Positions 61,912 through 64,000 of a stretch of 64,000 nucleotides of DNA are shown here, piece by piece. Source of the stretch: Pleomorphomonas sp. T1.2MG-36 (lineage in GTDB: Bacteria; Pseudomonadota; Alphaproteobacteria; Rhizobiales; Pleomorphomonadaceae); NCBI RefSeq assembly GCF_950100655.1, contig NZ_CATNLY010000045.1:62001-126000 (forward strand), read 5' to 3'. Under the pieces are notes generated by a model that saw only the letters and a program-made list of their open reading frames with translations, searched no databases and was not told where the DNA came from. Made by a program: the position numbers and the translations under genes. Every line of letters starts with the position of its first letter. The stretch's first letter is position 1.

Positions 61912-62571
61912 ATGGTCGCGCACGTCAGGACCGTGTGTTTTCAAGGCGTCGAGGCCACGCCCGTCGACGTTCAGGTCCACATGGGGCCGGGTAGGGTGTT
62001 GTTCAACATTGTCGGTCTTGGCGACAAGGCCGTCACCGAAAGCCGCGAGCGCGTCCGTGCCGCTCTGGCCGCTTCCGGCCTCGCCCTGCCTGCCAAGCGG
62101 ATCACGGTCAATCTGGCGCCCGCCGATCTGCCCAAGGAAGGCAGTCACTACGACTTGCCCATAGCGCTCGGCCTCATGGTGGCGATGGGTGCCCTGCCGG
62201 CCGACGCTCTTGGCGACTATATCGTGCTCGGCGAACTCTCCCTCGACGGGACCATCGCGCCGGTGGCCGGCGTGTTGCCGGCGGCAATCGCCGCCAACGC
62301 CGAAGGATTGGGGTTGATGTGCCCGCGCGCCTCCGGGCCGGAAGCGGCCTGGGCCGACGGCGAGATGCCCATCCTTGCGCCCATCAGCCTGATCGCCGTC
62401 GTCAACCACTTCAAGGGTACCCAAGTGCTGTCGCGGCCCGAACCGAAGGTGGCCGATGCCATGGCGATCCTTCCCGACCTCGCCGACGTCAAGGGTCAGG
62501 AGAGTGCCCGGCGGGCGCTCGAAGTGGCGGCGGCCGGCGGACATAACCTGTTAGTCATATACGGCACATAA
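61912..62571 (+). pseudogene. comM: comM/yifB fragment (Mg-chelatase-like ATPase), truncated by insertion
   Basis: Only 219 residues of a protein normally about 500 long. The N-terminal S5/Lon-like domain (FNIVGLGDKAVTESRERVRAAL; PADLPKEGSHYDLPIALG; GELSLDGTI) is intact, and the ATPase domain begins normally with LADVKGQESARRALEVAAAGGHNLL. The sequence then departs at VIYGT-stop, exactly where GPPGxGKS (Walker A) should come. All ATPase motifs are lost from this side. ComM is a helicase that aids branch migration in natural transformation. Confidence 0.92.
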
Positions 62572-62574
62572 CCT
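62541..62574 (+). other. Putative left attachment junction (attL) in comM
   Basis: Homology to comM ends between about 62550 and 62560. ACATAACCT occurs twice (62541-62549 and 62566-62574), once in comM sequence and once just inside the element. Serine recombinases cross over at a 2-bp core within short att sites; the exact core cannot be placed without the right end. Confidence 0.6.
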
Positions 62575-64000
62575 CGACAAGGCGTGGTGCGCCGGCTATG
62601 GTCGCGTCATGCCAAAGGCCTATAGTTACATCAGATTTTCGACTCCGGAACAACGTCTCGGCGACAGCCTCCGGCGCCAGCTAGAAGCCGCGCGCAACTA
62701 TGCAGCGGAGCAAGGGCTGGAGCTGGACGAGAGTCTAAGAGACGAAGGTCGTTCGGCGTACAAAGGCAAACATCGCGATGACAAGGCTGCTCTCGGGTCC
62801 TTTCTGAAAGCGGTCGAGAAGGGACGGGTTGAGCGCGGCAGCTACCTGCTCGTTGAAAGCCTCGACCGTCTTAGCCGTGAACAAGTGACAGTAGCTCTCC
62901 GGCTCTTTTTGCACCTTATTGAACTCGGACTGACGATAGTCACTCTCGCCGACAAGCGCGTTTATAGTGACGCGTCGCTCCAAGCAAATCCCACCGAGCT
63001 CATCATTTCGATTGTAGTAATGATGCGTGCGCATGAGGAGTCGGAAACAAAGGGAAAGCGTGTAGGTGCCGCGTGGGCAAACAAACGAATTCTCGCGGAA
63101 ACCGAAGGTCGTGCGATGACCCGGATCTGCCCCGGATGGATGCAGCTAAAGGAAGGTCGATATGAACTCATTCCTGAGCGTGTCGATATCGTAAGACGGA
63201 TTCTGCGCGAGTGCATAGGAGGCTCAGGCACTCGCTCGATTGCCTCCGGGCTCAACTCCGACGGAGTTCAGACATGGGGAGTCGGCGGCAAGAAGGGTTC
63301 ACATTGGCACGACAGCTATGTGAAGAAAATCCTCGAAAACCCGGCTCTCGTTGGTGAGTACACCCCTCGCTCTCCACGCGCCGGCGGCACGGAAGCGACT
63401 TCGGGCGCAACGCTTGTCGGCTACTATCCGGCGGTCACCGACCGCGAAACGTGGTTATCGGCACGCGCAGCTATGAGGGCGCGTGCGACGTCATCGGTGC
63501 GTGCTCCGGCCGGACTTCACCGCAACGTTTTGAGTGGCTTGCTCAAGTGCCATGCTTGTGGCGGGGGACTTCATTATATTGATAAAGGCCGGGGGCCGAA
63601 GGCAGGCGCTCCCTATTTGCAATGCGGAAACAGCCTCATGAAGGGGGGCTGTACCGAGAAAGCGAAATATAACTACGAGTCTACCGAGTCGGCCTTGCTT
63701 ATGACGCTCGCTACGAACGCTGTCGATGTTCGTGACGAGACCGTCGATGTCGCGCCATTTATGGGAGCGGTCACTGACGCGCAGGCAACGGTCGAGCGCT
63801 TGCTAGACCTCGTGGCGACAGGTGTGACGTCCGGAGCAGCCGTCGCGCGCCGAATTGCAAAGGCCGAGGCAGACCTCGCCATCGCGCAAACGGCACTCGC
63901 TAAGGCTGAGGAACGCCGCGCACTCGCTGCTTTGCAACCCCTGCGACGGATCCACATCGACTCCGCAAAGGTGGCAATAGCCCTTAGAGAGCGACCTGAC
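62555..64000 (+). mobile_element. Left end of an integrative element inserted in comM (continues past window)
   Basis: Starts near the loss of comM homology and carries a large serine recombinase as its first gene, the standard end layout for such elements. Codons ending in A/T (AGT, CTA, ATA, GTA) are visibly more frequent than in neighbouring genes. The rest of the element and the comM remainder are not in the window. Confidence 0.85.
62609..64000 (+). CDS. Large serine recombinase (site-specific integrase), 3' end outside window
   Basis: 464 codons are open from ATG 62609 to the window end, with no stop. The resolvase domain (about residues 3-155) has YIRFS with catalytic Ser11 and Arg9, then LVESLDRLSR (81-90) and the ESETKGKR segment. 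A Recombinase domain (about 170-260: VRRILRECIGGSGTRSIASGL; YVKKILENPALVGEY) follows, then a zinc ribbon with Cys314, Cys317, Cys339 and Cys348, and a coiled coil (about 415-440). This is the integrase architecture of phages and ICEs. No clear ribosome-binding site precedes it. Confidence 0.95.
   Translation, partial: MPKAYSYIRFSTPEQRLGDSLRRQLEAARNYAAEQGLELDESLRDEGRSAYKGKHRDDKAALGSFLKAVEKGRVERGSYLLVESLDRLSREQVTVALRLFLHLIELGLTIVTLADKRVYSDASLQANPTELIISIVVMMRAHEESETKGKRVGAAWANKRILAETEGRAMTRICPGWMQLKEGRYELIPERVDIVRRILRECIGGSGTRSIASGLNSDGVQTWGVGGKKGSHWHDSYVKKILENPALVGEYTPRSPRAGGTEATSGATLVGYYPAVTDRETWLSARAAMRARATSSVRAPAGLHRNVLSGLLKCHACGGGLHYIDKGRGPKAGAPYLQCGNSLMKGGCTEKAKYNYESTESALLMTLATNAVDVRDETVDVAPFMGAVTDAQATVERLLDLVATGVTSGAAVARRIAKAEADLAIAQTALAKAEERRALAALQPLRRIHIDSAKVAIALRERPD

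Follow-up and report, generated by a model that had tools for sequence, protein, structure and literature searches.

A 25,559-bp genomic island, integrative and at least ancestrally mobilizable, very probably sits in comM of Pleomorphomonas sp. T1.2MG-36 between attL and attR, placed there by its own large serine recombinase (LSR). The two parts of comM, the empty sites of relatives, the anatomy of the att sites, the gene content and the related islands are all directly visible in the genomes. We attribute the insertion to the LSR because the far part of comM was recovered, relatives carry empty sites, and the att anatomy is common to 20 elements. Most likely, the LSR recombined attP of a circular element with attB in comM; the crossover would lie at a [C/T]T dinucleotide in the Leu codon of the motif HN-x-L-x-x-GPPGxGKS, and integration would have split comM into a 219-aa N-terminal ORF and a 303-aa ORF that starts at an ATG lent by the element. 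The putative cargo is an MZA-like operon with a cytosine methyltransferase and Vsr, on a backbone that appears to be common to other islands: a MobQ-type relaxase, a lone DotA/TraY protein, a replication-like protein, an orphan C5-methylase, and a Y-family polymerase.

comM is split in Pleomorphomonas sp. T1.2MG-36 and uninterrupted in most relatives

The window, which is the whole 64,000-nucleotide stretch analysed here (G000:C45:62001-126000), belongs to a 371-kb contig, one of 54 in a draft genome of 5.2 Mb. At its right edge, the 5' part of comM (yifB) forms a 219-aa ORF at 61912..62571 on the plus strand, identified by ChlI, by TIGR00368 and by comparing it with the uninterrupted comM of 18 relatives. 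Host sequence runs to 62552; the final codons and the stop are element derived. The ORF retains the ChlI domain (Pfam, E 1.4e-39) plus the first 28 positions of Mg_chelatase (Pfam), and its end reads GGHNLL, then VIYGT, then the stop, which bears out the sequence-only reading that comM is normal to GGHNLL and stops five residues later. That reading placed the break immediately before GPPGxGKS; this has to be corrected because the break, at 62551-62552, falls in a Leu codon three codons before GPPG. Identity of the 5' part to the comM 5' part of a Methylobacterium locus is 72%, which fits an alphaproteobacterial host.

The check that it proposed, extension past base 64000, led to the comM remainder at C45:150098-150973, on the same contig and strand as the 5' part and separated from it by 25.6 kb, and so fixed the length and cargo of the element. 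Against the 499 positions of TIGR00368, the 5' part covers 7-217 (184.3 bits), and the remainder, with a complete Walker A motif, covers 211-499 (332.2 bits); neither part reaches the model's cut-off of 362.4, as a single ComM protein should, and the gene is interrupted. The 3' ORF has 303 aa and holds the whole ATPase module, its in-frame ATG being lent by the element just before HNMLMVGPPG. Full-length ComM is not translatable from the split gene as it stands, and the host may have lost ComM function and, with it, any capacity for natural transformation; a ComEC homolog is present in the genome.

A missing 3' part was one outcome that would have spoken against an insertion, and a truncation common to relatives that lack the recombinase was the other; the latter did not occur either. 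The LSR was found in one of the 20 family genomes, that of T1.2MG-36 itself, and in none of the 19 others searched (E <= 1e-30). A one-piece comM above the model cut-off is present in 18 of the 20, and in all 18 the DNA is uninterrupted through the site. The exceptions are T1.2MG-36 and G019, a member of the same genus, in which two contigs (L045 end, L042 start; C14, C83) overlap by 55 bp inside comM. This overlap stops exactly at the LSR core dinucleotide of comM. Because no third contig shares the overlap and no LSR was found in G019 (E <= 1e-30), its break is either an assembly break or the trace of a mixed empty and occupied site.

The recombinase and the predicted crossover

As the sequence-only reading stated, a large serine recombinase gene begins 37 bases past the comM stop codon; its ATG is 56 bases past the break. 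The gene occupies 62609..64000 of the window on the plus strand, runs on to C45:126291, and encodes 560 aa with three domains above curated cut-offs: Resolvase (PF00239, 66.5 bits), Recombinase (PF07508, 41.7 bits), and Zn-ribbon (PF13408, 30.7 bits). R9, S11, Q24, D86, R87, and R90 are invariant in 9/9 aligned LSRs, and the catalytic Ser and Arg are conserved; residues were paired by eye with the Bxb1 residues named in PMC12884075. Judged by its domains, catalytic residues, and att anatomy, the protein is a large serine recombinase. It is predicted to be active and may be able to excise the comM island.

Both comM parts were on one contig in 22 elements. G622, whose 3' part is incomplete, and G538, whose left junction could not be found, were set aside, and attL and attR of the remaining 20 were aligned on the codons HN-x-L-x-x-GPPG. 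In these 20 elements, host-like sequence runs through the Leu codon in the N part, and the C part restarts at the same codon. When centered on the Leu codon, the arms match as inverted repeats at a mean of 13.35 of 22 positions over the 20 elements, against 4.4-7.05 at 12 other offsets (-6 to +6), and this offset is the single symmetry maximum in 19 of the 20; the exception, G648, has its maximum at another offset. Random stretch pairs, evaluated for the first 18 elements, averaged 5.7, with no draw of 2000 above 7.5. The arms of the window's own element are symmetric at 11 of 22 positions, a modest value: of 20000 stretches drawn at random from the element region, 295 reach it too. In-frame stops in some N parts were considered as a sign of decay and rejected because the matches run beyond the junction.

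We place the crossover on the Leu codon because attP symmetry peaks there in the readable elements; the prediction is that it takes place at the first two bases of this one codon, three codons before GPPGxGKS. In the window, the predicted attL crossover dinucleotide, located by the attP dyad, is TT at 62551..62552 on the plus strand (which opens the Leu codon of HN-x-L-x-x-GPPG), and its attR partner is TT at C45:150110-150111; the insert measures 25,559 bp from core to core. The element-derived attP arm beside the core, assigned by symmetry with the arm at the far element end, spans approximately 62553..62576 on the plus strand. The window's core reads TT, that of most other elements CT, and in 20/20 the second position is T at attL and attR alike. 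At the first position, attL and attR disagree in four of the 20 elements (G608, Ps13, G205, and G053; not the window's), a departure from strict core identity that we assume to reflect later mutation. Since it adjoins the Walker A motif, the Leu-codon site is probably well conserved. The LSR gene starts at most about 260 bp from the core and faces it in 19 of the 20 elements; the exception is G319, in which the LSR lies inside the split comM, away from both ends.

Distribution of comM-LSR elements

Besides the window's element, 27 comM-LSR elements were found, 28 in total, and those 27 include elements in single-contig genomes. They comprise seven genome_contigs loci, 16 other genomes of the order sample (G319 included), and four more from the phylum sample. 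The genome_contigs collection was searched with the LSR alone and yielded 12 loci; a comM part directly adjoins the LSR in seven of them, from four Pseudomonas, a betaproteobacterium, a Sphingomonadales bacterium, and a Methylobacterium. A profile built from nine LSR sequences matched in 20 of 397 order genomes (E <= 1e-60). The comM part directly adjoins the LSR in 16 of these 20, the window genome counted, with G319 in addition; G037 and G222 have an LSR match yet an intact comM, and in G341 the LSR and comM are on different contigs, with comM broken elsewhere. In the phylum sample, the profile matched in 32 of 398 genomes, 30 of them with a locus (G414 and G624, which have none, stand outside the count); eight loci adjoin a comM part, and four of these had already been counted.

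The genomes of family f81 (L066-L073, L077, L084) hold a well-supported clade of related LSRs, with up to three matches per genome, and no comM part adjoined the LSR in the 10 f81 loci examined. None of 11 LSR relatives in viral_contigs had a comM part within the examined flanks. The best-ranked LSR match in phage records had 39.8% identity over 62%. Phage records with comM-like pieces (24, of which three were inspected) were set aside: their matches stop where the host-derived part of the query stops.

Insertion direction

The elements are inserted in both directions. Of the 19 elements (out of 20) with the LSR at the core, 10 have it next to the N part of comM, reading in the direction of comM, and nine next to the C part, reading against it; the 27 elements whose side is clear divide 13 to 14 (G319 has no side). 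A tree was built for 26 of the 27 side-labelled elements, L082 being dropped. On this tree the side of insertion needs eight changes, at least five of them forced by well-supported branches, and the side labels are no more clustered than shuffled ones (169 and 195 of 500 shuffles were as low for the two sides). Sister pairs on opposite sides include G329/G247 (support 100/99) and G205/G053 (96/90). The tree has its weaknesses, with long branches in several rows, unrelated leading residues in L074, and near-copies in L051/L053. Loci of direction-change elements include L128-L148 and L011-L017.

On the LSR tree, insertion direction has switched at least five times within the comM LSR family, a feature that is possibly new. 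For such a change it would be enough to reverse the core with respect to the LSR gene, attP being near-palindromic outside a non-palindromic core. Arm similarity in the sister pairs scores alike both ways, so a core flip and an inversion of the whole attP are indistinguishable. The central dinucleotide alone reportedly sets the direction of Bxb1 in the laboratory, a finding said to go back to Ghosh in 2003.

Cargo of the comM island

In 1-kb bins, G+C content is 0.55-0.63 inside the island and 0.63-0.68 in the nearest flanking bins, a difference so modest that composition alone would not prove foreign DNA. Fifteen element ORFs were scanned, leaving out a few short ones. The genes identified encode a relaxase (frame broken), a lone DotA/TraY, an MZA-like operon, a cytosine methyltransferase (Dcm), Vsr, a replication-like protein, an orphan C5-methylase, and a Y-family polymerase. 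No Tn7-type transposase (Pfam) and no phage structural gene were found among the 15 ORFs.

The relaxase gene lies at C45:126821-128748 (L002:6822-8749) on the minus strand. Its MobA_MobL domain scored 162 bits, and the MobQ model 180.9 bits against a cut-off of 200. Comparison of the ORFs with the kin copies shows that a frame change after the relaxase domain splits the gene into 484-aa and 126-aa ORFs in different frames, whereas the kin copies, of 641 and 643 aa, each read in one frame. Like an integrative and mobilizable element, the comM island has an integrase and att sites, as far as sequence can tell, but its relaxase is not intact, and its present mobilizability is doubtful because the frame is broken. 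There is no complete mating-pore set in the island, DotA/TraY standing alone among the 15 ORFs scanned. A DotA/TraY gene near a relaxase gene recurs at L002:9136-11562, L135:11912-13984, L140:11945-13918, and L160:10220-12619; in the G329 island with DotA/TraY, the relaxase evidence is only a MobV match below cut-off.

Four adjacent genes match PADLOC models MzaB, MzaC, MzaD, and MzaE (E 3.8e-86, 2.6e-134, 1.2e-13, and 7.3e-74, respectively). Compared with the MZA system as represented by the PADLOC and NCBIfam models, the operon differs in that all four proteins fall far under the NCBIfam equivalog cut-offs and that its neighbors are Dcm and Vsr; no model named MzaA was among the matches listed (the best 25 for the two methyltransferases). 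This gene content suggests that the island may protect against phage and be mobilized by a helper.

For the cargo of the other comM elements, the survey covered 100 ORFs out of a set of 257 with a length of 100 aa or more, a set in which LSR ORFs and 19 ORFs of the window are counted; it excluded G348, G394, and G538 and made no use of 12 of the 112 references. Pooled matches included, among the best 25 families of 124 in PADLOC and of 44 in Pfam, nine Resolvase, four DNA_methylase, two EcoRII, one AIPR, and one SIR2_2, these being pooled counts without a background control for which no enrichment is claimed. One of the 100 proteins, from another comM-LSR element, matched DprA (DNA_processg_A, best E 8.8e-55), a transformation-related family.

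Related islands and a possible exchange of the integrase

A second copy of the backbone is located in the same genome at G000:C1 about 408500-434000 (L162:10528 onward, L160). Its proteins are 76% (polymerase), 77% (methylase), 73% (687-aa protein), 85% (181-aa protein), 74% (DotA/TraY), 72% (relaxase, 641 aa and unbroken), and 74% (193-aa protein) identical to those of the comM island, and its relaxase also covers the separate 126-aa ORF of the comM island, at 77%. The flank of the C1 island has a tRNA-Glu, an MmeI-type restriction enzyme, and a 587-aa ORF that is a tyrosine-integrase candidate, its DUF6538 match scoring 25.1 bits, below the Pfam cut-off of 27. A third copy is found in G010, a genome of the same genus with an intact comM, beside a tRNA-Ser (G010:C2:18000-57999; L163, L161). 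Its integrase candidate has DUF6538 and a phage-integrase SAM-like domain above cut-off, and the catalytic Phage_integrase model below it; the island also carries Dcm/Vsr and an AAA_13 protein. More distantly, the comM element of G247, from another family of the same order, has a relaxase 53%, a DotA/TraY 37%, and a methylase 47% identical to those of the window island, and carries EcoRII with a methylase.

The position of these kin beside tRNA genes, with tyrosine-type integrase candidates, points to integrase exchange. From the gene content, the simplest reading is that the backbone swaps integrase modules and defence cargo, which would possibly be new. A broader reading, which we put forward as possible but doubtful, is that one backbone moves by swapping the whole integrase module (tyrosine-type at tRNA-Glu/tRNA-Ser, LSR at comM), that comM LSRs reverse direction through the two-base core alone, and that the lone DotA/TraY refits a helper's mating pore or evades entry exclusion. 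Gene content and the LSR tree back two parts of it, the exchange of integrases and the repeated change of direction; the two-base cause of that change and the role proposed for DotA/TraY are hypotheses. SGI1 uses its own pore subunits to refit the mating pore of its helper or evade entry exclusion. Two TrbI loci are present in the window genome, but DotB, the one marker sought, was not found above cut-off, which weakens the mating-pore reading of DotA/TraY.

Alternative explanations

In Listeria comK, a serine-recombinase prophage regulates gene integrity, and the comM island might likewise excise under some condition and restore the gene. In its favor, the LSR ORF and the two att sites all appear intact, and the 55-bp overlap of G019, ending at the core dinucleotide, resembles a mixed empty and occupied site. 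However, the lack of an LSR (E <= 1e-30) and of a third contig with the overlap in G019 counts against this, as does a cargo that resembles a defence island rather than a phage, and we consider regulated excision unlikely. We find it quite improbable that comM has instead become two working proteins, with the ATPase part translated from the element-supplied ATG. The 303-aa 3' ORF is indeed open from an in-frame ATG just before HNMLMVGPPG, the ChlI domain is kept in the 5' ORF, and in G247, a relative by the LSR tree, the same codon also carries an ATG in frame; but G247 is the only one of 18 other right ends with an open ATG, G329 having an ATG followed by a stop and the others no ATG. An element-supplied start codon as a general feature of comM 3' parts was dropped on the same count (1/18).

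Arrival by Tn7-like transposition, with the LSR as a passenger, would fit the use of comM by AbaR islands in Acinetobacter, where other interrupters are also described as carrying defence genes (PMC11472951). We give it very little credence: the 15 element ORFs include no Tn7-type transposase, the ends show an LSR-type dyad, and the LSR adjoins the junction in 19 of 20 elements. The probability of an assembly chimera, which a draft of 54 contigs might raise, is close to negligible, given that both ends are on one contig and that the same junction occurs in 27 other elements, some of them in single-contig genomes. Insertion of the island into comM by its own LSR therefore stands as the best explanation.

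Relation to known elements

comM as an LSR target is not new because it has been reported twice. In its account of LSR targets, PMC10083194 (Durrant et al. 2022) gives 12.4% of predicted site-specific LSRs as targeting homologs of a magnesium chelatase/ATP-dependent protease gene, which we read as comM/yifB, and describes the targets as enriched for competence genes. In PMC9203015, the magnesium chelatase gene is reported as the integration target of most sr1WO recombinases of Wolbachia phage WO, and non-fixed orientation is remarked on for a Wolbachia WO prophage in PMC5447182. The claim of the sequence-only reading that an LSR in comM is a different route to the same hotspot therefore holds as far as the contrast with Tn7-like AbaR elements goes, no Tn7-type transposase being among the 15 ORFs, but not in the unusualness it implied (PMC10083194, PMC9203015).

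The LSR elements of PMC10083194 have the same enzyme class and apparently the same target gene family as the comM island, and relative to the target section of that paper our analysis adds the codon, the direction changes, and the island backbone. The sr1WO systems, as described in PMC9203015 and PMC5447182, likewise combine a serine recombinase with a magnesium chelatase gene whose parts flank the prophage; WO, however, is a tailed phage, whereas the comM island carries a relaxase gene together with defence-type genes, and none of its 15 scanned ORFs is a phage structural gene. In Acinetobacter, comM is described as interrupted by AbaR and other elements, often with defence systems (PMC11472951); the AbaR/AbGRI islands interrupt the same gene but by Tn7-like transposition, not by an LSR. 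With integrative and mobilizable elements as characterized in PMC5704250 and PMC5357655, the comM island has in common an integrase, a relaxase gene, and no complete secretion system; it differs in its broken relaxase frame, lone DotA/TraY, and large defence-type cargo.

The natural symmetry of 20 elements yields a predicted crossover base, and with it a candidate attP/attB pair, for a very common and apparently little-described LSR target. Repeated direction change in these elements would be a possible natural counterpart of the central-dinucleotide finding in Bxb1. Pleomorphomonas sp. T1.2MG-36 adds a case, outside Acinetobacter, in which a defence-type island interrupts comM, and its genome also contains kin of that island.
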